Part shown: positions 20,128 to 63,148 of the stretch, in pieces | Layout of the letters: each line of letters begins with the position of its first letter | Numbering within the stretch: the first letter of the stretch is position 1 | Origin: Gonatopus flavifemur | Lineage: Eukaryota; Arthropoda; Insecta; Hymenoptera; Dryinidae | Direction: 5' to 3' | NCBI GenBank assembly: GCA_018340375.1 | Contig: JAFFJZ010000054.1 | Location: 1,116,001 to 1,180,000 of the forward strand | Length of the DNA stretch: 64,000 nucleotides | Made by a program: the position numbers and the translations under genes | Notes under the pieces: model-generated | Databases searched by the model: none | Told to the model about the DNA's origin: nothing | What the model saw: the letters and a program-made list of their open reading frames with translations, nothing else

Positions 20128-23100
20128 TCATGATTCGATTTCCTTGGATTCGTTAATTTCGTTGTCTTCAATCGGCAGTAGACATAATTTTGGAACAGAA
20201 CGTTGAGTTCTGTGTTTTGATAGACGCAACGCGGACTGGATCATCCTTTCCGGGATGGACGTCGACGATTCAGCCCAACGGCTAATTTAACGGTGACGTG
20301 TTTTCCTGCTGAATTAGAACCATCATACCAGGAATCAGCTTGAGCTCTGAATGGTTCCATTTCATGCGTTGTTGGAGTAAATTGATGTATTCGCGACTCC
20401 AGCGATTTCAGAAGTGCTGTTTGATTTGATTTAATAATCCCCATCGAGTTAATCGATTAATCGGAGTATCACTGACATCAGGTTCCGGAATACTTCTCAG
20501 TGGTTCTCCGATGAGAAAATGGCCCGGAGTGAGTGCTTGCAAGTCGGTAGGATCGGATGAAAGGGGAACTATGGGTCGAGAATTCAAGCACAATTCTATC
20601 TGGGTGAATATTGTGCTCAGTTCCTCGAAGATCAATTTACTAGAGCCCATCACTCTCTTGAGATGAAGTTTAGCTGCCTTCACGGCTGATTCCCATGAGC
20701 CACCCATATTTGGTGAATAGGGTGGAATAAATTTCCATTTTATCGAATTTTCGTTCATGAAACTTGACACTCTAGGATCGTTAATTGGAAGCTGAACTAA
20801 ATCTCTTAAAACTTTATCTGCTCCCACAAAATTACTCCCGTTATCGGAGTAAATAGTCCTGCGGAACCCTCGTCGGGCAACAAATCTACTCAACGCATTG
20901 ATAAATGCTTCGGAACTAAGATTCGAGACAACCTCAAGGTGTACTGCTCTTGTACAAAAACAAACAAAAAGACACAAATAGGCCTTTCCCGTTACATTTT
21001 GTGAAACCCTCATGGAAAACGGCCTCGCAAAATCTATCCCAGTGGTTAGAAATGGTCGTGAAATTGTCAAGCGAGAAATCGGTAATTCTCCCATGAGCTG
21101 CATGAGCTTTGCAGGCTTGACTCGGAAACAAATTATACACCTCCGAAGCACCGAGCGGACCAATATCGTTCGCGGAGCAATGATAACAAGCCTCGGACTC
21201 CCATATGTAAATTTCGGTAGTGTTCATGCCTGATGATCAATACAGTAAGCGGATGTTTGCCAGGAAGAATTATGGGATGTTTGACGTCGTACTTGAAGGG
21301 GGCATTTTTTAGGCGGCCTCCAACTCTAATAGTCCCATTTGCATCTAAAAACGGACACAATGATGCCAATTTACTTTGAGTTGAGACAGGCTTCTGTTGA
21401 GATAGTAATCGGAGTTCTTTATCGAACGTTTCTGCTTGAGCCAGTCAAATTAATCCCGCGAACGTGTCCTCCAATTCGTCTACGGTCAACGGTCCAGATC
21501 GACGAGCTGGATGATTGAGGGAATTGAACGAATATCTAAAACAATATGCCGCAATTCGCTTCAGTTTCTTGAGTGAAGAAAATTTCGTGAAAATGTTGAA
21601 ACCTGAGGAGTCTTCTCCGTTAGTAACTGTCATAGTTGTAGGTTCCTGTTTCCTTTCAGGGACAGCGACCTCATCGTGATTTTGATCGTCAAGTGGCATA
21701 TTCACAATCCTTTCCCGCAAGAATTCGGGGCCTTCCCACCATAAGCTGCAATCCTTAAGTCCTGATGGAGTTGTTCCCAGAGAGATCAAGTCCGCGGGAT
21801 TCAATTCCGATGAAACGTGGCACCATTTTGTTGTATCCGTCATTCGATGAATTTCGGCAACGCGATTCGCGACAAATGTTGTCCACTTATACGGTTCTTC
21901 CGCGATCCACGCGAGAGTGATCGTTGAATCACTCCAGTAGTAAAAGTCGGCTATTGGAACAGTGATGGATTCCTGAACCTCACGGCACAGATGCGCTAGA
22001 AGTACTGCTCCACGAAGCTCGAGTCTGGGCAGTGACTGATTCTTAGTTGGTGCAACTCTGGATTTGGCACAATGCAGGCGAACCATAGGCAGATCGAATT
22101 CGTTGATGCTTCTGATATACACGCAAGCACCATAGGCTCTTTCGGAAGCGTCAGAAAAACCGTGTACTTCTATTCTAGTGGGACGAAGACAGATGATGGT
22201 TCGCGGAATTCTAATATCGTTGATGTCCCTCAATTGTGTAATCCAATCTTGCCATTGAGTTTTAATTCGATCGGGAACCTGTTCGTCCCAGTCGATTTTT
22301 GCCTCCCAAAGATCCTGTAGTAAAACCTTAATGACGACGGTGATCGGACCAATTAGGCCAAGGAGGTCAAATATCTGAGTGACTGTTGATAAGATCGAAC
22401 GTTTTGTGAGTTTGGTTGTAGAACCAAGAATATCCACCTGATACCTCATAGTATCCGCAACGGTGTTCCAATATACAACTAGAATCTTAGTTCTCTCACC
22501 AAGACCGATAGAAGTTTGATCGTCGTCAATGTTGAGAAGTTGCGGAACATTTGACTTCCACTTCGCTAGTTCAAACCTACCGGAACTCAATATTTTAATT
22601 ATGTCCCTCTTGATTTGTTCGAGTTGGGTAATATCGTTGCTTCCTGTGAGCAGGTCGTCGACGTAAGAGTCACTGGGAATGATCTTGGATGCGTCTGGAT
22701 ATTCGGTGGCGTGATCAATAGCTAGCTGATTGAGGCATCTGATTGCAAGAAATGGAGCACAAAACAAGTCGTAAGTCACTGTACTCAATTGAAAAATCCT
22801 GATGGGTTCGTCAGAAGTCCAACGCCATACTATTCGTTGCCACGTCTGATCCTGCTCTCTAATATTGACATGCCTATACATTTTTCTAATGTCAGCTGAT
22901 AATGCGTAATAGTGCTGCTGAAAGCGTAGAAGTATAGACATTAGGTCCTGTTGTATTGCAGGTCCCACCAACATAATTTCATTCAGAGACTTTCCGTTAG
23001 TAGTTTGGCAAGATCCATCAAACACCACACGTATTTTCACTTTGTCAGCTTCCTCTTTCAGTACCGGATGATGAGGCAAGTAATAGGCAAGTTTTGGCTG

Positions 23101-25368
23101 AATTGTATCCTCTACCTCTGTCATATGATTTAGGTCCCGATATTCCCCCATGAATTCATTATACATTATCCGTAACTCAGGGTACCTGTTCAATCTCTTT
23201 TCTACGCTAAGCAACCGTTTTACAGCAGTCGACTTTGATTCGCCTAATTCAGAAGGAGGTGATTCAAATGGGAGCGCAACCGAAAAACGCCCGTCAAGCG
23301 CTTGTGTGTACGAGGTACTGAAGATTCTCTCACACTCCTGTTCGTCAATCGAGAGTCTTGGTCCTTCAGGGATCTCTTCTAAATTCCAAAATCGTTCGAG
23401 GTGTCGATCTAGATTTATTGTTTCGGTGAAAAAACATTGTGTTCGTAAAGGTGGATTGACTGCAACACTTGAGTGAATAGAACCGGATACGATCCAGCCT
23501 AACCGAGTTTCTTGAAATATTGGCCCATTTCCTGATTGAAATTGACCAGAGCACAATAATTGCCAAAATATAACTGCTCCTAATAATAAATTAATTTTCC
23601 CTGGCACGTGAAAAGATGGATCGGCGAGTTGGACTTGAGCAGGAATCTTGAAATTACTCAAGTCAATCTTCGCAGTTGGCAGCTGATTAGTGAGTTTATC
23701 AAGCACGATGAAAGGCAAATCGATCTCAAAAATAGATGTTCTTGATTCAATAGCAGCATGAACGGTACCTAGAGTATTCGCGTTTGACCCTTCGATACCC
23801 TGAATAGTTATATTCATAGGAGAAGTTCGCAATTGAAGTCGATCATCAAGTTCACGAGTCATTATATTTGACTGCGAACCAGAGTCGAGCAATGCTCTAC
23901 AGGAGTGATTTTTTCCTTGATGATCTCGTATTAAGACTGTTGCAGTCGATAGCAAAACTTGTGAGGTACCAGAAGCCGAATGACACGCAGAAACATTAAT
24001 GTTGGGTGAATTTGAGATTGTATTAGTACCTTGATTCTCGCTGCCATTATTAGAAGGAATCGATGTTTCCGTGGGTTTTTTATTCTGAATTGTTTGCGTG
24101 TCTTTAGCTTGAGATGGCGTTTCAAAATGTAGTAGGGTGTGATGTGACCTTTGACATTTTTTGCATTTGCCAGAGGTACAATTTGAACCATGGAATGGTT
24201 TTAGACAGTTGCGACACAATTTGTGGGCTTCAACTTCATTTACTCGAGACGTTACTGATGAGTTGCGAAATGTATTGCACATAAACAATTTGTGCGCCCC
24301 GTTGCATATGGGACAGTTACTATACGTAGCCAAAACGTGAGCATAGGATGTGCTCGGAGACTGATTCGAAACCATAGTGCCCTCTCGATTATTTACGAAT
24401 TCTCCCTTGCTTTGCATAGGAACGTTATCGATATTCTTGGAACGAGGAATTGACTCCAAGTACGAACATCTGTTCGTCAAAAATGTAATCAGTTCTGCTT
24501 TAGTAGGTAATCCTGCCTTTGTTGCACGCTCCTTTTCCCACTCTCGAATCGTGACTGAATCCAATTTAGGCAATATGATTTGAACCCGCAACGCATCCCA
24601 TTGCTCAACCGGTTGGTCCAATTTTCGCAATACTTCCAAATGCTTTGCTACATCGTTCAAAAGTTGTCGTAAGCTACTATGAGATTCTTTTATGATGGGA
24701 CTTATATTAAGAAGAGCTTGCAAATGAAATTCGGTAATTTTCCGTTTGTTTTCAAATCTGCCTTGGAGCAAATTCCATGCGATCTGATAGTTATCGTTCA
24801 TTACATCTAGAGTTTGAATGAGATCCGATGCCTCTCCTATTAGAGACGACTTTAGGTAATGTAACTTCTGTGCGATCGTCAGTCTGTTGTCATTATCAAT
24901 TAAAGATTTGAACAAATCATTGAAGGACATCCAATTTTGGTAACTCCCATCATATTTCGGCAAATCAATGACTGGGAGTCTTACGGGGATCTGATGAACC
25001 AACTGGCTGTTAGGGTTCAAAGGCGCTTGAACAGGCACCGGCGGTAGTGGTGGTGCATTTAAGACTACGACTTCTGGAGCTTGCTGTACACGAAGAGCCG
25101 AAGCTTGCGCTATTATCCTATGATAATTATCCTCGAAATTTTCGCGTTCTTGATTTTGAGCGTCACTGTCATCCAAATCTTCAATTTGATTCTGGATATT
25201 GTCAAATTCCCTCCACAATTCTGAGACCCCTTCCAACCCACTGGGGAGCTCAACGCACTTATCAACCTCTTGAATACACCTCTGTGAGAATGTCTCGAAT
25301 CTTGTGAGCTTAGTCTTAATTCGACCTCTAATTTTACTTAATGCGGCAATTTCTTCTCTATTCGACAT
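20128..25368 (-). pseudogene. BEL/Pao gag-pol polyprotein, interrupted
   Basis: The first 1307 codons (25368 to 21445) are open. The N-terminus MSNREEIAALSKIRGRIKT leads into a gag region. Zinc-knuckle-like clusters follow near residues 349-415 (CPICNGAH, CRNC, CKKC). Then come a protease motif ALLDSGSQSNIMT near 493, reverse transcriptase with YVDDLL near 903, and RNase H with FSDASERAYGACVY near 1073. A stop at 21445-21447 interrupts the frame before the integrase. After a frameshift or small deletion at about 21133-21163, the integrase core shows its acidic residues in GIDFARPF, SDNGSNF and GGSWESA. Further in-frame stops lie at 20408-20410, 20282-20284 and 20270-20272, with a probable frameshift near 20190. 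The last residues end at 20128. As it stands it cannot make a full polyprotein. Confidence 0.92.
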
Positions 25369-26482
25369 TTTTTTATGGATTCATTTCAAATAAATCACGC
25401 ACGTTAGAGGATTAATGCGTTCAATTGGAACCGTACGAGTAGATAATCAGCGATAAAGAATTGCCTGTCAATTATTAACGGAATAAAATCGCGCTGATCA
25501 CCTCGATAAACCACGCACAATATGTCATATTCAATAACAAAAAAAAACTATCAGAAATTATCAATTCAATCAACAAGAACGACGTTAACTCATCACGTAA
25601 AAATATATATTGAATTGAATTGTAGAGATAATAGAAATAAAAATGTTGATATGAATCGTGCTTGAAAATACAGGGAAGATTTTGAATGTGATTCAAGTAA
25701 TGAGAGGATAAGGAACGAACTCACTCGATCATGATGTGTGGCGGCAGCACAGTTGCATCAAACACACCAATATCCTTTTTGTTTACTAGGCCGCGGTGAA
25801 CCACAACGACTCGATGTTGCAGAGGCTTCCTCCGGCAATGATTGGAAATATCCAGATGATGAAGGATGATGATGATTCGAAGATAAATCACCCAAAAATA
25901 CGATGAAAACAATCGATTTTGGTAATCAATTGTTCCGTTAAATGTTCAACCGCGTCAACTGTCAACGCACGTTATTCGAAAGATCGTCTTCACCAAGATG
26001 GCGGATCGTGCACTTGTGAGAGCGTCTATACGAGACGATGTACTCCGAGCTGATTGACAGCGAAATAAGAGCGTATAGTGTTGTTTTCGTATACAATATG
26101 GAAAGAAATCCGTAGCACGAAAGAATCTGCGTATATGTAAATCGGAAACACGCACTGTTTCTCATTCAATGATTGAGCGCGTATACGTATATATGACATA
26201 TAATACCAGAGACGAAGATGGCGGCACGTAACGACGCGCGTATGTATGAGTGGCTTGCACGCACTGCTCACAATGGCGATGACACCGGTTCACAAATTAT
26301 TCGGCATAATCACGTTGATTAAACTTGCAACCTTTTGAATGCAATAACGATACGTATGTTCGAGGAATTAACCTTGCACGGTTCGAAGTGATGACGAAAA
26401 GATACACCTCTCTCAACCGTCGAGCTGAACGATTATTAGAATGTACTGGAAACGGTAATGGAGACACGTCGATTTCACACTA
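25369..26482 (-). other. BEL/Pao leader between primer site and gag start
   Basis: About 1.1 kb lies between the primer-binding site and the gag ATG at 25366-25368. Short frames on - show no domain and would be upstream frames or noise. The length is unusual but not unique for BEL elements. I see no separate insertion with TSDs inside it. Confidence 0.6.
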
Positions 26483-47110: not shown

Positions 47111-48130
47111 ATTACCGCAGATGGGAGGAACCAAATTGTAACCAATGCAGGATTCTGAACATTCGGTAAATCTTCGTTTTTTAACCACGAAGCAACCAAG
47201 AAATGACCAAGAAGACCATTCCTGTGATCTGGTGAAAAAAGGGGTTTTGTTCCAAAAAGGTACCGAATCGTGACCGATGAGTAGCACTGAATATTCGGTA
47301 ATTTTATGGGTGTATACCGGAAATTTACCTAAAACTGACCAATTTGCTTCCTCCTATTCGCGGTAATTTCAGGCATTTTTTTTCCAAAAAGGAACCAAAT
47401 TGTAACCAATGCAGGATTCTAAACATTCGGTAAATCTTCGGTGTTCGATCACGAAGCAACCAAGAAGACCATTCCTGTAATTTGTTAAAAAAAGTGGTTT
47501 TGTTCTAAGAAGGTACCAAATTGTGACCGATGAGTAGCACTGAATATTCGGTAATTTCATGGTTGTATACCGGAAATTTACCTAAAACTGACCAACTTGG
47601 TTTCTCCTATTCGCGGTGATTTCAGGCGTTTTTTCCCAAAAAGGAACCACATTGTAACCAATGCACGATTCTCAACATTCGGTAAATTTTCGGTTCTTAA
47701 CCACGAAGCAACCAAGAAATGACCAAAAACACCATTTCTGTAAACTGTTAAAAAAAGTGGTTTGGTTCCAAGAAGGTACCGAATCGTGACCGATGAGTAG
47801 CACTGAATATTCGGTAATTTTATGGGTGTATACCGGAAATTTACCTAAAACTGACCAATTTGGTTCCTCCTATTCGCGGTAATTTCAGGCATTTTTTTCC
47901 AAAAAGGCACCAAATTGTAACCAATGCAGGATTCTCAACATTCGGTAAATTTTCGGTTCTTAACCACGAAGCAACCAAGAAATGACCAAAAACACCATTT
48001 CTGTGATCTGGTGAACAGATGGTTTTGTTCCAAAAAGATACCGAATCGTGACTGATGAGTAGCACTAAAGATGCGGTTGTTGGTTATTTTGTGGTAAGAA
48101 AAAGTCACAAACGTACCGAAATTTTTTGGC
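47111..48130 (-). repeat. inverted array of the same monomers organised as ~263-bp dimers
   Basis: The word TTGTAACCAATGCAGG recurs at 47136, 47400, 47652 and 47915 (spacings 264, 252, 263). Each period holds two related halves, one with ACCAATTGTAACCAATG-type text and one with CCGAATCGTGACCGATGAG. Each half carries ATTCGGTAA, matching the monomer of the + array in reverse. This is a higher-order dimer repeat. Repeating short protein frames in it are not genes. Confidence 0.85.
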
Positions 48131-50192
48131 AACTTTTTGGTAACCTCAAAATTGCTAGGGTCAGCACAACAAAACGTAGGCGGTTTCAACATACTCAATA
48201 CAATGCTATTAAAGTGGGCTGTATGTTTTCGGGATTTTTTTCGCTCATTCATCACAATAGGATCTGAGGATACCAGCATCCAGTTCAATATGTCACTATT
48301 CGTGTTAATTCTCGAAGTTTTTCTGGAATAACAACGTCTCAATCTTTTATACTTTTTATGGCCTGTCTCAAGGACATCTTCTGACAGTTGACCCACTGGC
48401 AAAGGTGAAGATTTAATAATATCAGCTCCATGTATCAACAGTTTGTGAACAGTGGCACTCATTTTGTACCAACTATAAAGCGAAACAGCCATTTGTGCTG
48501 TTTCAAAGCAATATTTTTGAAATTCTCCTTCTTTAACGTGGTGCCCACGAGAAATAATGGGAAGTATATTTGCAAACCGTTCTATCAGTTCTTTATCGAT
48601 TCCTGTTATCTCAGAGACAAGTGAAGGATTCTCAAAAAATTTTCGTGCCGTGTTACCATAATTACTATTACCTCCCCCTTGTTTTGGTTGATCAACGAGT
48701 CCCATTCTCTCGTAAAATTCAGTAGCCAGCTTACTTTTTCTTTCCTCAACTTTTCCTTTCGCATCATCACCTCTCGCTTGCCACTGCTGCAATTCCAATT
48801 TATATGCTATATGCAGTAAATATTCATAGCATCTAAGACGTGCATGAAGGACAGAAATACCAAATTTGAAAACGTCTTCAATACACACTTCTTGAGTTCC
48901 TCCAGATCGTTTAAATCTTTAGGCGTTGCCTTACAAACATTGCACGCTTGCGAACTTGAAGTATCAGTCAAAATATTAATTGTCTTCCCATCTAACATTG
49001 TACAAAGGAGAATGTGTTTGAATTTTATTTCCTTAGAGCCCAAAACGATTACTGTAGGTTCCAATTGCAATATTTGTGTTTGTATTTCGTTATACTCTTC
49101 TCTCACATTCTGAACATTTTCTTTCTTTATTTTGAATCCAATCGGACGGCAATACCTCGTTGATGATGGTGTCGTGTTCTTCCAATATATATCTTTTTAT
49201 CATCACCATTAGATTCACACATTTGTAGGGGTACAATCGTACTTAAAATTATATTCGAATCTGCATATTCTGAATTACTTAAAAATTTTGTTTGTATATA
49301 CTGTGTCCACCGCTGCCATCTGAACCCCATTTATGATAAACGTCGATAGTATCACAGTCCTCCGAAATATTCTGCGGTATGACATCAGCCTGTACTTGTA
49401 CCAGACGTTGTATAGTATGCGTAAGAAGATCTACTAGCGGCACCACAGCCTCGTTTTCACTTACCCTAATATTTGCAGGATAACATTTCTTTTTTGCCTC
49501 TGCTATCACATGATATGAAGGATAAATATCAGCGTCTTTTTTTTTGCTCCAAGTCGCATTGTTTTATAATCTTCTTTTGTCAACTGAAGATCCACTAGGA
49601 GACCTAAGGCTTCTTCAGGGCTGTACGGTCTGACAATCGCAGAGGATTGTGTATCACACATCTTCTTCATCATTTTCAATTGCTGGGGCGTGGATTGAAT
49701 GGCAAATTCCACAACTTCGACTGCAGTTTTTTTGCCCCATTTCACCAAGCTTGATTCTGCAGCGAAGCACACTTTTTCTAAACTGAGATTCGACACAATT
49801 GGTTTAATATGTCTTTGCTTACTACGTACACAACTCTCTTCTAACAATTCTTTTGGCCTGCCACTTCTTTTTGAATTCGAATGTTTAGGTGTTAAAGACG
49901 GAAGCTGTGATGGCTGTATTACCGGAAATTCCAAGTTTCCGTCAAGCCATTTCATGTGCTTCTTGTTGGAATGCTGATACACATAATTACAATGCCGCCA
50001 TTTTATGAGCAGTTTTGTAATAAAAACTTTGATAATAAGTTTTATTCGTTTCTTATAATATTCAGGAATTCCAGTAACATCATACTTATCTAATATACAC
50101 TGCAATAATTCTTCATTACACTTCAATGCCGAGAAGTTGTGAAATTTTGAACTTTTCAATAACGTGAATAGTTCTCTTCTTTGAATCTTCAT
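48050..50192 (-). pseudogene. RAG1/Transib-like transposase gene, at least four frameshifts
   Basis: Five consecutive frames on - read one protein family. The start MKIQRRELFTLLKSSKF is at 50192. After a break in an A-run near 49545 comes YHKWGSDGSGGHSIYKQ, resembling the segment around the first catalytic Asp of RAG1. After breaks near 49270 and 49195 comes YCRPIGFKIKKEN, then CNVC near 48940. After a break near 48870 come VLHARLRCYEY, VHKLLIHGADII, and SEDVLETGHKKYKRLRR. The CxxC, the HxxxxH and the Glu about 21 residues later reproduce the order and spacing of the RAG1 zinc site (C727, C730, H937, H942) and catalytic E962. Few true stop codons occur between the frameshifts. The last codons run into the 131-bp array, so the natural C-terminus is displaced. 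I found no terminal repeats for the element. Placement in Transib proper or a sister family is open. Confidence 0.65.
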
Positions 50193-51521
50193 TCTTTTTT
50201 CTTTTCAATAGAATCACCACGACTACCTAATAAAAATACACTTGATTTACTAAAAAGGGAAATACATGGTTTTTTATTTTATTGTTTCATACTAGGGATC
50301 AAATGGTATTTCAAACTGTTGCGAAAAATGTGTAGTACTTCGGAAAGCCAGAATTTGATATATCATAAAACATGTATGAGAGGTATACTGCGTATCACTT
50401 GTCATGTTAATAATCATTGAAATTTAAAGTACATACCTGACGCTTCTGTATCTGTGGTGAATATCTTTAATATGATTTCGAATTGAGGGAAGTGGGAAGA
50501 GCGAATTTATTCCATTGACATTTCGACCGTATGCAACCGATATTAGCGAATTAGACAATGCCTTATGATTCTGACAAATTTTTCGTGATTGCTCCTATGT
50601 GATCTGAGAGATCTTCCTTCACAAAAAATTGAGAGAATTCTTTGGTTGGACACTGTTGGAGCCGGTTTTTGTTCCATTTCGTAGGTAAGCCTTTCATCTG
50701 CAACCTCCAATATGTAAGGTGATGGAACTCAGTGGAACTTTTTACTTTTTCTTCGAAAACCAAACGAATTTTAAGATGCAGAGGTATAAAAATCACATGC
50801 AATCATTGCTCTGTCATAATTTGTTACTCAATGAATTGATATTCCTCTGATTTTTAGTTTATTCTATATACTTTCAGTAGTAGATTCCATGTTCAAAAAG
50901 TTCAATCAGTTCACTTTTCGAGATACAGCGTCTCTGTGAACATAGTCGTTATTCTACTGTCTCTGGTCATGCGAATGATACCTCAGGGAAGGGTACTTTT
51001 GAACTGGTACAAAAGGGCAGGCGGGAGGAATCAGATCTTCTCATATCTGGATTCGAATACTTGAGACATTACTTTACTCATCTCAATGGTCCAATATCCC
51101 CAACTGCAAACTTCATTTTTTGAATTTTGTCGTCGTAAATGGCAGTTTCGGCCCCATGTGCCCTGGTAGAAATTTGTCTAGGTGTCTCATTTATCATCCA
51201 CGTACTAGATGAGACCCACGAGGGAGCAATCGGATAACACATTTCAGCCAATTTGACTTTAGTGCTCAAACATTTGGTTGGTTTATGTAGATTTTTCATA
51301 CGTCAACTGATCGTACAGTAACATTGACAGTCCATCAACACGGTCAGAGGAATAAAAGGAAGCCCCAACGTTTCAATTTTTCATTCGGGATTATTTTATG
51401 GGAATAAATTTAGAAGCAACGTTCTTGACTGGAAATCACATGTCGAAATACATTGTTACCTCATTCATAGGTGTGATTACACAGAAAACACATGATTTCA
51501 CATTTCAAATTGAGCCCACGG
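50193..51521. other. region upstream of the RAG1-like gene; nothing recognised
   Basis: If the gene belongs to a transposon, its left terminal repeat should lie here, but I cannot identify one. Short frames at 50563-50802 and 51078-51299 have no known domain. Confidence 0.35.
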
Positions 51522-54038
51522 AAAGCATAACCGACGATGCGTTCGAAAAGCGGTAAAAGTATTGTCCAAGCCGCCACGTGAAGGTTCGACAAAAAAATCG
51601 GAATCTTGGAAATCTAAAAGGACTGGGTGATAGGGCTTGAAAAATCAATCTGAGTCCCCCTTACAATTTTTTTGTATGATCGATAGTTTTCAAGAAAAAA
51701 AATAAAAAGCACCTATTTTTTTAAATTGAAAATCAATGTTTTTCAACATTAAACTCTTCGTAACTCGGCCATTTTTTCATGTATCGTAATCAATCTTGCG
51801 TAATCCGACTCGTAAGACTTTACCGATGACGTGTATGTTGGAAAAATTTGTGAAACTTAATAGAAAATTATGAATATTTTAATCCGAAGTAAAAACCACG
51901 TTCTTCATACTTTGCGTTGAAAAAGTATCGGGGGAAGTATGAGCTACGAAAAACTTCCAGCGATAAAGTTGTTCGTTAGTGTATGGAGGAACTTTGTGGA
52001 AATTTTCAGATCGATTGAACTATTAGTTCCAAAAATACAGCGATTTTAATATGAACGCGTAACGAGAATTGTTCATCATTTCGCGTCGTGTTAACGGCTG
52101 AATATTGGAGTCCATAGGAAAGATTGTAGTTATTCGATTTTTCAATGCGTGTTTATGTTTTTTGAATTAGGGAATTCAAATATTGAATTATTTTGGCACG
52201 ATTCGTTATTTGCTTTCCTTACAAATAAATTCATTGTTTATAATGTTTTTATGAATAAACCATTCACTTTGAAGAAAAATTGTCTTTCGAACAAGAGAGG
52301 TGACTTTATTCTATGAAACAAAAAACTTCGTACACATTATTTTTTACAGAATAAGAAAAGTTTTGTTGAAATAATTTTCCCATAAAACCAATATTTCGGA
52401 TGTGAAATCGTCTCAAATAAATAAAATTTACGATCACTCAGCCAAAACCGTTCGTAATTCCTTGAAAATTTGCATACATATTCTGTATGCATTGAGAAAG
52501 TCATTGGGTTGCTTATAACGATGGGAATATTAAGTATATTATTCAATCATGTTCAATAATAAATTTATACTAATCAAAATCGTGCTGTGCCAATTTTGTT
52601 GCGTATACTTTCCATGTGATACTGCTCCCAGACACGGAGCCTACGCTTTGTTCAATATCTTCTACATTTTTTACAGGATAATTTCAAGTTTCGTACAAAA
52701 CCTCTTAAAAGATGAAGGAACAAATTTGCCGCTTAAAATTTTGCGAACTTGGAAGTTTCCTTGATACTTTTCCTCCATGAAATGGCACAGCACGGTTTTG
52801 ATTGGTATGAATTTATTATTGAACATGATTGAATAATATACTTAATATTACCATTGTTATAACTAAACCAATGACTTTTTCAATGCATACGGAATATGTA
52901 TGCAAATTTTCAAGGAATTTCGAACGGTTTTGGCTGAGTGATCGTAAATTTTATTTATTTGAGACGATTTCACATCCAAAATATTGGTTTTATGGAAAAA
53001 TTATTTCAACAAAACTTTTCTTATTCTGTAAAAAATAATGTGTACAGAGTTTTTTGTTCCATAGAATAAAGGAACCTCTCTTGTTCGAAAGACAATTTTT
53101 CTCCAAAGTAAATGGTTTATCCATAAGAACGTTATAAACAATGAATTTATTTGTAAAGAAAGCAAATAACGAATCGTGACAAAATAGTTCAATATTTGAA
53201 TTCCCTAACTCAAAAAACGTAAACACGCATTGAAAAATCGAGTTATTACAATCTTTCCTATGGACTCCAATATTCAGCGGGTAACACGACGCGAAATGAT
53301 GAACAATTCTCGTTACGCGTTCATATTAAAATCGCTGTATTTTTGGAACTAATAGTTCAATCGATCTGAAAATTTCCACAAAGTTCCTCCATACACTAAC
53401 GAACAACTTTATCGCTGGAAGTTTTTCGTAGCTTATACTTCCCCCGATACTTTTTCAACGCAAATCATGAAAAACATGGTTTTCACTTCGGATTAAAAAA
53501 TTCATAATTTTTTATTAAGTTTCACAAATTTTTCCAACATACACGTCATCGGGAAAGTCTTACGAGTCGGATTACGCAAGATTTATCACGATACATGAAA
53601 AAACGGCCGAGTTACGATGGGTTTAATGTTGAAAAACATTGATTTTCGATTTAAAAAAATAGGTGCTTTTTATTTTTTTTCTTGAAAACTATCGATCATA
53701 GAAAAAAATTGTACGGGGAGACTCAGATTGATTTTTCAAGCCCTATCACCCAGTAACTTTAGATTTTCAAAATTCCGATTTTTTCGTCGAACCTTCACCA
53801 GTGATGCCAGCATTTGGTCGACCGAGTCGATTTTCCCTCTCCATCACATCTGTCTGTATAGAAATGTCACACACACAATCAAAGCTCCGACAAAAGAAAT
53901 TTGATTGTATACAGCTTGATGGAGGGGGAAAATCAACTCGGTCGACCAAATGCTGGCATCACTGACCTTCACGTGGCGGCTTGAACAATACTTTTACCGC
54001 TTTTCGAACGCATCGTCGGTTATGCTTTCCGTGGGCTC
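51522..54038. mobile_element. 2.5-kb element with ~1.07-kb terminal inverted repeats, non-autonomous
   Basis: The ends GAGCCCACGGAAAGCATAAC and its inverse. The arms run 51522-52592 and 52783-54038, the latter enlarged by a nested 166-bp MITE, around a 190-bp centre. AATT lies just outside each end (51518-51521 and 54039-54042). The arms share blocks with the arms of 57801-63144: GGTAAAAGTATTGTCCAAGC, GGGTGATAGGGCTTGAAAAA and GGGGAAGTATGAGCTACGAA. No transposase gene is present. The central 190 bp reads without a known domain. Confidence 0.9.
53799..53964. mobile_element. second 166-bp hAT MITE, reversed, in the right arm of the 2.5-kb element
   Basis: Same length and ends as 26645-26810, in opposite orientation. 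ACCTTCAC is duplicated at 53791-53798 and 53965-53972. The left arm keeps the uninterrupted site near 51577-51584, on the other strand. It therefore inserted after the long-arm element formed. Confidence 0.95.
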
Positions 54039-54229
54039 AATTATCAATTTGAACAACATTCTAGCAATTTCCTGATGTATCTGGACGGGCGCAGGCTAGG
54101 AAGTGCGTTACAAAACTAGCTAGGAACTAACCTAATATCCGGGAAAGCTAGCTGGGCCCATCTAATTCCCATTCATAATTTCTACTAGGGTAACACCTCG
54201 CGCATTGGATATGTTACAAATTTCATGGC

Positions 54230-56733: not shown

Positions 56734-57800
56734 TATAACTTATTTTTACAAAGGCCCTGAAAAACGTTTTGGAAAAATTTCCGAAATTCTTATTCAAGAT
56801 CCGTTTTTTCAGTATGTCCTATTGAACATTCTTCTTGTGAGAATACTACATTTTGGAGCAGAAATTCATGAAGCGGTGCAGGTATTTCCAACTTCAAGGC
56901 ACTTGAGTACTTCCGCTTTATCCTTATCTAATCCGGAGCATTGCGTTTCAAATAATGACATTGAAACCAGTCACATAACGCAGCCCTTGGCACCTAATCG
57001 ATGTTGAACGATAAAAAACTGTTACCATTTGTGGGTTCCATTCAACAAGAGAGTGTTCATTTGATTCTATTTATCAATATCTGCTATATTTGGAAGAGCA
57101 CCACATGTCTTTGAAACACATCGATTGGGAATTTAATTAGATGTTTGAAATATGAAGATAAACTGAAGAAGTTTGTTCCTACAATACCATTTATTACACA
57201 TGTGGAGAGATATCAATGTATTCTATGTAATTACACTTCCTGTTGTGTACAATTTGATTGGAGAATATATTCAATCAGTTAGTTAATTGACTTTCGTGTG
57301 ACGAAGACAATACATAAAAAGTGAAGAGTAATACATTCAATTGAGCCTCCTCGATTATTTTTTATGTATTTCAATATAAGTATTTCCCACGAAGAATGGA
57401 GATTATATGCAATACTTGCTCACCTTATCCTCAAAGTTAATTAGAGAACCGTTTTTTAGGGGCTTTTATACTTCTCATTAATTTATTTTAAAGATCTATT
57501 TTAATTCAATGTGTTTGAAATATAAGATATATTTTGATATTTAAAATAAATTTTCCGAAGTATTTCATATTTTCTTTTTTGAAAAATATTTTCCAGAGTA
57601 ATTTGTATTTTGTATTTGAAATATTTTTTAGGTGTATTTTGCTCAACCTTGGATCACGTCAACGAAACTTCTATCTTTCGTAAAGACACAACATGATGAG
57701 GATGGTTTTATGAAGTATTTATATTATTCTAAATAGTATCTATATCTCTTGAATACCTTACGATATTTCTGCAACGTCATTCAAAGCTACTTGCAGAATT
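56734..57800. other. AT-rich stretch with no recognised feature
   Basis: No gene or repeat structure recognised. Short frames only, such as 56822-57007, with no domain. Confidence 0.35.
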
Positions 57801-58939
57801 GAACCCACGGGAAGAAGAACTCGACGAGCGCTCGAACCGCGGTAAAAGTATTGTCCAAGCGGTCACGTGGGGAACCGAAAGAAAAGTCGGAATTTTGGAA
57901 AACTAAAAATACTGGGTGATAGGGCTTGAAAAATCAATACGAGTGTTCGTTTACAATGTTTCTCTATGATCAATAGTTTTCGAGAAAAAAATTAAAAAGT
58001 ACCTCTTTTTCTCGTACTAAAAATGAATGTTTTTTCATCTTAAACTCGTTATAACTCGAGCAGTTTTCAACGTATCAAGATGAGTCTTGCAGATTCTGAT
58101 TCGGAACACTCCTCCGAAGATGACGATCTCGACAAAATTTTCAAAAATTGATGCAAAATTAATGAAATTTCAATTTGAAGTGAAAACTTGGTTTTCAACG
58201 GAGAGGAAAACTTTGCATTGAAAAAGTGTCGGGGGAAGTATGAGCTACGAAAAACTTCCAGCGACAAAGTTGTTCGCTAGTGTGCGGACAAACTTTATGG
58301 AAAGTTTCAGATCAATTGGACTATTGGTTCGAAAGATACAGCGATTTATCCATCAGCTCGCAACGGAAATTTCTCATGACTCTACCTCGTTTACCTGCTG
58401 AATATGAGGATCCGAATGAAAGGTTGTATTCACTCGATTTCTCAACGTAGATTCATGTTTTTTTGGTCGAAGCATCCAAATATCCAACTATTTTTGCAAA
58501 ATTCGTTATACATTCTTTTTTTTTTGAACAATCTTTATTCAACGCATCATTGTTCAATCCTTATTCTGCAAGATGAAAATTAAAGATTGAACATTTGTGT
58601 GCTCTCTCGAACTCAATACTTTCCGAAACTTATTTCACGATTACTTGGCCAAATCTTATCGGAATGATATAAACATTGATATCCAGATTCGATGTGTATT
58701 GCCGAAGCTTGTAAAATGATTCGAATGATGAAAACATTTCGTTTTTCAATAATATTTGATAACGAATTAGTGGCTCTCAGGCTCGTGTTTTCCGAGTTTC
58801 AACGACACAAAGTGTCGAGCGAAATGTGAAATTAAGAAAACTTCGAACAATAAAGTTATGCTCTTATGTTTGAGGAAGTTTTCCTGGAAATTTGAAATTA
58901 ATCGAACAAAAAATATGGGATTTATGATTTATGTAAAAC

Positions 58940-59468
58940 GATTTCGTCTTATGAACGGGTCCTGTATAACATCATATTCATGTCTTGAAATATATTTCAG
59001 ACAAGTTCAAAATGTCTCATGCAACGTGTTTGGATATCATTCACATCATATATGACACATACAAACCTCGTGATAAAAGTTCATTATTTGTACTTTTTCT
59101 TCAGTCATAAATGATTTGGAAATGCTAGTGAACTTTGAATTGTTTATAGACATGATTGTCGAATTGAATTCGGACAAATTTAATTCGAATTCAATGTTAC
59201 CCTAACAGCACAACTGCTTTCCGTTACCTTTAGATACCTTTCTGAAAGGTGTTACACGCATCGGTTCGTTAATACAGCGAATTTCTATTCAATCCACTTA
59301 GCGAAGACGGATTCATTCAGATAGCGAAATCTTTTTTCTCCGTGTAATGAACCAAAATTGCCCCCCTTGGACACAATACACTGTAAAAGATTCATGTAAA
59401 TAAACGATTCAAACTGCATACAATATATTTTGAACCAAAAAAAGAAATTATATCATTAGAGTGAATAA
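58940..59468. other. interval between left arm and 3' end of the gene
   Basis: No gene. It contains a TTTGAATTGTTTATAGAC word near 59134 and its inverse AAACGATTCAAACT near 59400. A GAGAAAAAAGATTTCGCTAT block on - near 59320 resembles a MITE terminus. It could be a small decayed insertion in the 3' region of the gene. Confidence 0.4.
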
Positions 59469-61806
59469 TCATTCTTTATTTTTAGGTTTTCTAATTGATA
59501 TTTTCGAAAATAAGTTTTCAAAAAATTTCAGACCTTTTGGACTCAAATATCTTAATAAAGTTTGTAAATCTTTCATCTTCTCTGCACTTATGCCAGTTGG
59601 AGCAGCTGGTGGTGATTTGCATAATGCATGTAAACTCACTGAAGATTTGATGATATGAATTTTTGGTTCTCCATTGTAACTTTGGAATATATTGATTTGA
59701 CCGTTAGGAAAATATTGAATCCGTACTGCTTTGCTGATTTGCAGATTCTTAATATTTTTGACATTTTCCTGTAACAGAACCTCATAATCTCGGACTGGGC
59801 AATCTACTTCTCTGACAATTTTAAATGGTGGATTTCTTGCACTTTCTATGAGATCAATGTAGTCTTCATCCGTTTCAATAGTTTCAAGTTGTTCCTTTTT
59901 TTTGCCATATACCCCGAAATTCCGATCGCAAGAGCAGTATGAATGTCCACGAACTGGATACACATGTTCAAATTCAAGTTGCAATTCTTGAGCCAACGAT
60001 GATAAGAAAGAGACGAGGAAACGGTTTTTATTCTGACCACCGCAACCATCCGAAAATAAATAAATTTTATTGTAATAATTAAGCTCCAATTCTTTCTTCA
60101 TTGCATGTAAGATAAAATTGCACACAGTATTACCACCTTTCTTAAAATTTCCTTCTAAAAAAAAGAACATGTAACTTCTGCCATGTTCACCGGAGACATG
60201 CACGTTAAAAACGTGTAGCCAAAGCAATCTCTTGTAGAACTGATCTGATACAGGAATTTTCGGCAAAGGTAAATTTTGACCGAAATCAAATTCAAGACAT
60301 AACACATTTTCTTCTGCCAACATTTTCTTCTTCAATATTTTGTACTCTTCTATACTTTTTTTATGCTGTTTGAACTCATCACCAGGATTGTTTTGCCGCT
60401 CTTGTTCAAAACACATGTTACGAACATCAGTGCGTGGTATTGAGAAAGAAAAATTCAAATGACGATTAAAATATTGAGAGTAGGTTGATAAATCAATCGG
60501 AGGATTTTCACAACCTGTTTTCGCTGTATAATATTCCAAAAACAGAGCGTATATTTTTTTCAGTGTTGAATTAGGATGATCAAAATATTGTAAACTAGAC
60601 GTTTGACCGGCTTGACGTTTATAATGCGACTCAGAGTGTGGGATTAACAAACAGTGTTGATGGATCATTTGTTTTACATCTTCGGTCAATCGCACTACGT
60701 GATTTCCATGTTTTCCCCGACTATCTTCGATAGTTTCATTATGTAATATCTTTTTCTGTATAGTTGTGAATCGCCCTTGTCCTATGTTCAATAAATTACA
60801 TAAAAATTTTGACAAGTCTTTATGTCACCGAATTCGACATGCAAAAAATAATTCCACAAAACAACTTCATTCTGCGCATTTCCTGTAACATTTGGCGCTC
60901 TCTTTTTCAATAATCCAGCGAGGAAAATATTTTGAGAATCATATTTGCCATAGTTCCAAAATGTGTCATGAAATTTTTGTTGTTGTTAAACAGGAATATT
61001 TTGGAAACACTGTTTTACGCAGCACGAATTTACGGGTTTGAATTGCTTAGCTGCAATAGATTTCCCAGAAGTCGAAACATATTCTCGTCCCTGTAATACC
61101 AAATGATCGCGTTATACAATTCGATATTCCAAACACTATCCAAGTTCTCAACATTGAATAATTATTTTTAAGTAATAATCTTGTATCGACTGTAACACAC
61201 TATTTAAAAATTATTTCAGTAATGTATCAATTGTATTTCATTCTTTCATCTTCATTACATTTCAATATTGTTCCACAAGAATATATCAATAATCTGTCAA
61301 CTGAAACGTTACCTATTTGCAATGTCTCAGATATATTACAAAGGAAACATTACAATGAAATATTCCATAAATGTTCTTGAAATATTTCAAAAATAATTCA
61401 GAAATCTTGTATCGCAATGTAAGATTAGCGGACATTGCAATATTTGTGAAAGGACGTTGAAATCTCAGTACGACATGCAGCAATATTACAAGAATATTCC
61501 AATATTTCAAACGTTAGATTTCTGCGGTCGTAATGAAATCTTCGATGCTCTATGGGTTGGATGACTGTTAGATACAGAAATATTTATACATCGATGACTG
61601 CGAAAATACAATGTATTACGTCTCAGTTATGCATGGGAAATTAAGAAATTTGTTGACAGCACCATTCCATTGCACACTGTATTATACTAAATATATATAC
61701 GGAATATACAAACCTCCTTTTTAGCCTTTTTATTTTTGTTCTTCATCCAGTTGTTTGGATTTCTTGGACGTTTTCGACCAGTTTTTGAACTGTTTTCATC
61801 AGACAT
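59469..61806 (-). pseudogene. DUF7869-like transposase gene, two exons, one stop and one frameshift
   Basis: Exon 1 (61806-61714) starts MSDENSSKTGRKRPRNPNNW and is basic. A GT donor at 61713 and a TTACAG acceptor ending at 61091 bound a 623-bp intron. The join is in phase and gives KAKKE followed by GREYVSTSGKSIAAKQ, as in the insect family with a KRxRNxxxWKxN and YVSSxGKxVxAK N-terminus. Exon 2 runs to 59469. Its 448-residue open part has Asp 177 in LEFDFGQN, Asp 256 in FSDGCGGQNKN and Asp 297 in CDRNFGVYGKKK. This is a plausible RNase H-like catalytic set, as annotated for DUF7869 proteins. A TAA at 60986-60988 and a single-base-type frameshift between about 60821 and 60840 break the reading; otherwise about 570 residues are conserved. 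The frames upstream of 60815 are in phase with exon 1. The function as transposase of the surrounding element is inferred from position. Confidence 0.8.
61715..61806 (-). CDS. exon 1 of the DUF7869-like gene
   Basis: Thirty-one codons (93 bases including 61714), rich in Lys, Arg and Asn, with NNWMKNKNKKAKKE at the end. The basic segment could serve nuclear entry or DNA contact. It is too short to stand alone, and its role depends on splicing to 61090. Confidence 0.65.
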
Positions 61807-61919
61807 TATTATTACACTAACCCGGAAAATAAATTCAATAATAAAATTGTTGAAAATGTGGAATTATGCACTTTTTCTCACATCGGAGGGAGCAATGTTT
61901 TCTATTCTTACGGTTGCAA

Positions 61920-61935
61920 TTACTATATAGGCATT
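61920..61935 (-). promoter_or_regulatory. possible TATA box of the DUF7869-like gene
   Basis: On - the sequence CCTATATAGT lies about 120 bases upstream of the ATG and inside the 200-base interval between the right arm and exon 1. Position and consensus fit a core promoter; there is no other support. Confidence 0.35.
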
Positions 61936-63148
61936 TGTTTTTATTTGATGTTTTGTGTCTTCATTCGTCAACACCGAAGTCCTGCGTGCTCGGCGGCTCC
62001 GCTTGTTTTACATAAATCATAAACCCCATATTTTTTGTTCGATTAATTTCAAATCTCCAGAAAAACTTCCTCAAACATAAGAGCATAACTTTATTGTTCG
62101 AAGTTTTTTTAATTTCACATTTCGCTCGACACTTTGTGTCGTTGAAACTCGGAAAACACGAGCCTGAGAGCCACTAATTCGTTATCAAATATTATTGAAA
62201 AACGAAATGTTTTCATCATTCGAATCATTTTACAAGCTTCGGCAATACACATCGAATCTGGATATCAATGTTTATATCATTCCGATAAGATTTGGCCAAG
62301 TAATCGTGAAATAAGTTTCGGAAAGTATTGAGTTCGAGAGAGCACACAAATGTTCAATCTTTAATTTTCATCTTGCAGAATAAGGATTGAACAATGATGC
62401 GTTGAATAAAGATTGTTCATAAAAAAAAACAATGTATAACGAATTTTGCAAAAATAGTTGGATATTTGGATGCTTCGACCAAAAAAACATGAATCTACGT
62501 TGAGAAATCGAGTGAATACAACCTTTCATTCGGATCCTCATATTCAGCAGGTAAACGAGGTAGAGTCATGAGAAATTTCCGTTGCGAGCTGATGGATAAA
62601 TCGCTGTATCTTTCGAACCAATAGTCCAATTGATCTGAAACTTTCCATAAAGTTTGTCCGCACACTAGCGAACAACTTTGTCGCTGGAAGTTTTTCGTAG
62701 CTCATACTTCCCCCGACACTTTTTCAATGCAAAGTTTTCCTCTCCGTTGAAAACCAAGTTTTCACTTCAAATTGAAATTTCATTAATTTTGCATCAATTT
62801 TTGAAAATTTTGTCGAGATCGTCATCTTTGGAGGAGTGTTCCGAATCAGAATCTGCAAGACTCATCTTGATACGTTGAAAACTGCTCGAGTTATAACGAG
62901 TTTAAGATGAAAAAACATTCATTTTTAGTACGAGAAAAAGAGGTACTTTTTAATTTTTTTCTCGAAAACTATTGATCATAGAGAAACATTGTAAACGAAC
63001 ACTCGTATTGATTTTTCAAGCCCTATCACCCAGTATTTTTAGTTTTCCAAAATTCCGACTTTTTTTTCGGTCCCCCACGTGACCGCTTGGACAATACTTT
63101 TACCGCGGTTCGAGCGCTCGTCGAGTTCTTCTTCCCGTGGGTTCAATT

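Follow-up and report, generated by a model that had tools for sequence, protein, structure and literature searches.

The window analysed here is a 64,000-nucleotide stretch of the genome of the dryinid wasp Gonatopus flavifemur (contig JAFFJZ010000054.1, positions 1,116,001 to 1,180,000, forward strand). It contains an element of 5344 bp in which two long terminal inverted repeats (TIRs, hereafter arms) enclose an intron-containing DUF7869 gene. We consider this element, with a probability of roughly 0.75, to be a once-autonomous cut-and-paste DNA transposon with a transposase of the DDD type (three catalytic aspartic acids), which belongs to the Sola superfamily and is most likely of the Sola2 type. 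DUF7869 proteins occur in many insects, where they are filed as uncharacterized or hypothetical.

Element structure, copies and the AATT target

The window was searched for inverted matches and compared with 50 Markov shuffles. The longest exact inverted match is 398 nt, and the shuffles reach at most 24 nt; the arm similarity far exceeds chance. Aligned with the AATT included (57797-58939 against 62005-63148), the arms agree in 1135 of 1143 positions, and the alignment has a single 1-base gap. This agrees with the original prediction, made from the letters of the window, of two nearly identical inward-facing arms of about 1.14 kb with AATT outside both. The arm alignment places the left arm (1139 bases, + strand, beginning with GAACCCACGGGAAGAAG) at 57801..58939 and the right arm (1140 bases, - strand) at 62005..63144. 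AATT directly flanks 57801 and 63144, and its copies at 57797..57800 and 63145..63148 are assigned as the target-site duplication from the other copies and empty sites described below.

The gene lies on the - strand and is divided by one in-phase intron, as had been claimed. Exon 1 (61714..61806) has 31 codons, is basic (GRKRPRNPNNWMKNKNKKAKKE) and was placed by the aligned N-termini of relatives. The intron (61091..61713, 623 bases, GTTTGT...TTACAG) is in phase 0, and its junction is common to the relatives. Among the 55 relatives with the N-terminus displayed, 14 read Q|GxxY and apparently run in through the splice acceptor at the same place. Exon 2 (59469..61090) contains an open frame of 451 codons (60824-59469) that corresponds to the catalytic domain and matches Pfam PF25273 (DUF7869) with an E-value of 7.8e-13 and 48.9 bits, against a curated cut-off of 26. 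The predicted breaks, one stop and one frameshift, are also present: the first in-frame stop is at 60988-60986, and the frameshift lies just upstream of 60824. The window copy is also short near 59257, where other copies hold about 160-250 additional bases, a shortfall that the original prediction had missed.

The host assembly (636 Mb) was searched with the protein, as the original prediction had proposed, and with the opening 100 bases of the arm instead of the proposed 60. As 40 of 1049 and 94 of 1654 candidates were scored, respectively, the counts are lower bounds: at least 41 matches to the arm start and at least 95 to the protein, the latter, leaving aside the window's own match, with 57-97% identity. 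Among the 94 scored protein candidates, six places besides the window have a stop-free match to residues 3-451. In the same set, the group with 57-58% identity comprises 19 places, 17 of which have two TGA and one TAA; judged by stop counts, not stop positions, it looks as if one broken gene copy had been multiplied in trans. The five copies first inspected (L009-L013) all have a gene that is broken or has lost a part. L011 departs from the other complete copies in that its gene is turned round, and one and the same stretch (arm positions 330-452) is missing from its two arms.

All copy counts cover the fetched stretches that hold an end. Both ends were seen in 16 family copies, namely the window copy, L009, L010, L011, L012, L013, L029, L030, L031/L016, L058 and six copies whose middle was not fully read (L033/L020, L035/L023, L039/L038, L040/L017, L044/L045 and L051/L052). 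AATT is present at both ends in 15 of the 16, including the six paired by position only. Single ends of further family copies have AATT in 12 of 15 cases.

Since AATT is a palindrome and stands at nearly every end, it might itself be arm sequence. Comparison of filled with empty sites, which the original prediction had suggested, excludes this. L029 reads gaaggt-AATT-[element]-AATT-tatgatttt, and its mirror empty site, in the other arm of a host palindrome, reads ggaggt-AATT-tatgatttt. L012 reads tattaac-AATT-[element]-AATT-gatag, and its mirror empty site reads tattaac-AGTT-gatag. In addition, one AATT is common to two abutting elements in L014, and likewise to the L054 element and its neighbour. 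Because the paralogous empty sites have a single AATT or AGTT and abutting elements share one AATT, the tetranucleotide is not part of the arm. These sites show a 4-bp AATT duplication at the target.

The same evidence bears on the reading that no transposon is present and that a host gene lies within an inverted segmental duplication. The assembly does hold large inverted duplications (L015, 9.66 kb, 98.9%). However, the copies are dispersed on many contigs, break alike at AATT|GAACCCACGG with mostly unrelated flanks, and have paralogous empty sites. We regard this reading as refuted by the common breakpoints and the empty sites, with a negligible chance of being correct. As for L015 itself (G000:C323:49378000-49387700), this palindrome carries two outward-facing element ends and may be a real inverted duplication or an assembly error.

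Related elements

Six DUF7869 gene places were fetched to test for arms (L053 to L058), following the proposal that such genes elsewhere should sit between inverted repeats. One of them, L058, belongs to the window's family. L056, with 74% protein identity, was considered as a fifth diverged gene, but this was rejected: its gene stretch is 96% and its arms are 92-95% identical to the window copy at the DNA level, which makes it a decayed family copy. Its left end is AATT, and its right end lies beyond the fetched stretch. Other places with 74-77% protein identity, some with many stops, may be decayed family copies like L056. The diverged copies are L053 and L054 (60% protein identity, one group), L055 (58%) and L057 (64%), with 67-74% DNA identity to the window gene stretch, as measured in the longest aligned match of each. 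All four diverged genes lie within long inverted repeats, which are bounded by AATT on both sides in L053, L054 and L055. Part of the transposase gene recurs in inverted orientation inside the repeats of L053 and L054, so that the arms reach about 2.2 kb (2.17 kb in L054). Among the six gene places fetched, arms accompany each of these four diverged genes.

Element B (51512..54038), also in the window, is a long palindrome without a gene; it represents a related family and has AATT at 51508-51511 and 54039-54042. The original prediction had missed it. Its arms are 94% identical to each other (1100/1170) and about 75% identical to those of the main element along the first 700 bases. Its start is AATTGARCCCACGG, as in the main element. 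In the window, this sequence occurs exactly four times, once at each of the four element ends, and with at most two mismatches it has five matches compared with 0.52 expected. Within the left arm of the main element, three islands are fully identical to the element B left arm: 57839..57860 (22/22), 57911..57938 (28/28) and 58229..58264 (36/36), all on the + strand. These islands are candidate transposase-binding sites, as judged from sequence identity. A miniature inverted-repeat transposable element of 166 bp (53799..53964) with 48-bp ends and an 8-bp duplication (ACCTTCAC) lies within the right arm of element B; we take it to be of the hAT type by its 8-bp duplication.

Element B and the second element of L014 (no DUF7869 match) have AATT on both sides. 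Arms found apart from the gene thus break at the same AATT|GA, and among the places examined neither of the two refuting observations named by the original prediction was made. In total, AATT is present at both ends in five of six complete elements of other families. Arms, breakpoints and AATT duplication, together with diverged genes in the same architecture, bear out the proposal that gene and long inverted arms form a mobile unit. Members of four distinct sequence groups (the window family, L057, L053/L054 and L055) therefore have a complete transposon architecture with AATT target in one genome. Arms, breakpoint and target give a measurable unit for family surveys.

The probable DUF7869 transposase and its classification

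Catalytic residues were assessed in an alignment of 50 sequences, window included, and are numbered by the open frame. D180 is conserved in 50/50, D259 in 49/49 and D300 in 49/49 sequences (one row is gapped at the last two). All three acidic motifs named by the original prediction were found, and their aspartates are invariant wherever present. The predicted model of the protein (predicted local distance difference test, pLDDT, 90.9) has the order b1-b2-b3-aA-b4-aB-b5-aC of a putative ribonuclease H (RNase-H) fold. Its top structural matches are Metnase (3k9j) and Mos1 (4mda), followed lower down by retroviral integrases and Sleeping Beauty (5cr4). The full-length relative P0013 gives the same structural matches. 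The conserved DDD triad and the predicted fold support the proposal that the DUF7869 proteins of this genome are transposases.

The likeness to mariner Mos1 and to the Metnase (SETMAR) domain, the best structural matches, consists in the predicted RNase-H fold with a DDD triad, which is also the catalytic triad of Mos1. Mariner elements have a TA duplication and short ends, unlike the present element; the sequence identity is about 10%, and the DUF7869 protein has an extra N-terminal part.

Published passages describe Sola elements as having a DDD transposase, 4-bp duplications, a size of mostly 2-9 kb and TIRs of 11-1124 bp (PMC10741241). Amoeba Sola2 elements have AWWT duplications, stated to be consistent with Sola2 (PMC3627910), and curated Sola1 elements of bivalves average 5445 bp (PMC10294476). 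In our element, the triad is conserved in the 50 sequences and lies in a predicted RNase-H fold with its structural matches, the duplication is of 4 bp by the two mirror empty sites and the shared AATT, AATT in 15 of 16 family copies is an instance of the AT-rich AWWT target, and 5344 bp falls within 2-9 kb. The traits in these Sola passages thus fit, apart from an arm length just above the stated maximum, and the kind of transposon is already known. The DUF7869 gene has one intron at a conserved place.

Several observations weigh against this assignment. The arms (1139-1140 bp in the window copy, 2.17 kb in L054) exceed the TIR range given in the Sola passages, in the window copy slightly. 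The family copy L010 ends in GAAT and AAAT, three single family ends differ (TATT in L022, AAAT in L026 and L042), and the other-family element L057 ends in GATT and AATT. Sequence comparison with the PDB yields no transposase. The Foldseek first pass alone is weak, as NurA, Argonautes and UvrC are listed beside Mos1 and TnsB. Finally, the name Sola rests on traits set by the published description, not on transposase sequence.

Hence, we also considered a DDD transposon with the same mechanics but of a superfamily yet undescribed, outside Sola. In a Pfam scan of the 50 DUF7869 proteins, 47 match DUF7869 and 12 other families match one member each. No profile of a named transposase matches any of the 50. 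The rve integrase profile, expected of a Ginger-type transposase, likewise has no match among them, but the structural neighbours include integrase cores. None of the 120 relatives listed per protein search is named Sola or transposase; the names are uncharacterized, hypothetical, unnamed or DUF7869. A search aimed at Sola-named proteins gave 1034 relatives, with none called Sola among the 120 listed. None of the papers searched mentions DUF7869 or PF25273, a search on Sola in arthropods with all terms jointly required found none, and AATT is absent from the four papers listed for AATT with Sola. The missing Pfam match, however, means little if Pfam has no Sola model, and the Sola traits and the Sola2 AWWT in the passages cited above are present except for the slightly longer arms. 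We give an undescribed superfamily a minor share of the probability, well below that of Sola. Among the relatives listed, P0190 is evidently misnamed. In viral and prokaryote contigs, 43 and 106 stretches, respectively, fit the patterns of the protein relatives and none was confirmed, and the 25-base arm island had 0 matches.

Kilobase inverted repeats are also known from Foldback/Galileo-type (P superfamily) and Mutator-like elements. The Galileo passages report TIRs of 1575 and 1608 bp for one copy, long TIRs termed dynamic, and a palindromic target, but also a 7- or 8-bp duplication and another transposase family (PMC4168063). The duplication here is 4 bp, not 7-8 bp, and the P and Mutator profiles match neither the window protein nor the 50 DUF7869 proteins; an origin in these groups is very improbable. 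PiggyBac and Kolobok share a 4-bp AT-only duplication with our element, but theirs is given as TTAA in the source passages, and here it is AATT.

As a Sola-type element, the window element would work as follows. The spliced gene would encode a transposase of about 570 aa with a basic leader and an N-terminal part rich in cysteine; a conserved CxxC...H cluster would precede the RNase-H catalytic core, in which D180, D259 and D300 would bind two metal ions. The transposase would recognise sequences within the long arms and cut both ends. The ends would be joined to cuts staggered by 4 bp at AATT, and repair would yield the AATT duplication. Gene-less relatives such as element B were presumably mobilised in trans. 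The window copy is broken; other copies of the same genome retain an open catalytic frame, and the element may be active at present. PF25273 thereby gains a likely function, and annotators are warned that DUF7869 genes should not count as host genes.

Arm divergence, mirrored flanks and other window features

Within-copy arm divergence is 0.70% in the window copy, 1.59% in L009, 0.18% in L010, 0.10% in L011, 2.02% in L012, 0.44% in L013 and 1.76% in L029, and 23/1140 columns in L016/L031. The eight copies span 0.10-2.02%, with the window copy fourth lowest, and the between-copy median is 2.56%. The original prediction had taken the near-identity of the arms as a sign of recent movement. Within its family, the window copy does fall among the younger ones. 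As a clock, however, arm identity is rough: the divergence varies as given above, and in three copies arms and host flanks seem to have been mirrored together. A value of 0.7% together with a broken gene gives no date without a rate.

Changes private to one copy were counted as shared by both arms/present in one arm: 2/14 in L009, 1/16 in L012, 0/15 in L016/L031, 1/15 in L029, 1/3 in L013, 2/2 in the window, 8/2 in L010 and 7/1 in L011. Within-copy arm identity as proof of general gene conversion was dropped, as these counts show independent arm divergence in four copies. The L010 changes suggest that the arms were homogenised or that a diverged lineage moved late; those of L011 are explained by its mirrored flank.

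Host flanks are mirrored in 3 of 22 complete copies, and the other 19 show none in the 16-26 outward bases displayed. In L011 (G000:C186:74427-81148), at least 298 bases are mirrored, with 0/298 differences vs 1/1012 in the arms. In L030 (G000:C370:5373500-5379730), 448 bases are mirrored, with 10/448 vs 26/1103, and the mirrored stretch terminates in a (TA)n run. In L053 (G000:C365:366500-376000), at least 367 bases are mirrored, with 0/367 vs 3/2166. By their coordinates, these three elements lie at exact palindrome centres, and L012 lies about 18 bp off one. L012 and L029 are in or beside older host palindromes; the one at L029 is far older than the element because it has diverged by 9.18% and the element arms by 1.76%. 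A preference for palindrome centres was considered and dropped, since flanks and arms have diverged equally in L011, L030 and L053, which speaks against an older target palindrome. This equality suggests instead that arm and flank were copied inversely in a single event, with assembly error as the alternative. Tentatively, and with clearly less confidence than doubt, kilobase arms might rewrite adjoining host DNA when a break close to one end is repaired on the template of that copy's opposite arm and the repair continues past the AATT, mirroring the flank; here, too, assembly error is the alternative. If true, inward and outward inverted copying could lengthen arms and give rise to palindromes in the host. 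Such flanks also suggest a testable path by which long-ended transposons might generate palindromes.

Two further features were noted on the - strand of the window. At 47935-50204, three adjacent open frames (327, 129 and 232 aa) without a Pfam match at E 0.01 give the impression of another broken insect transposon gene. At 20408-25380, there is a BEL/Pao-type retrotransposon with a 1311-aa frame containing DUF1759, Peptidase_A17 and RVT_1, followed by an integrase (rve) frame.

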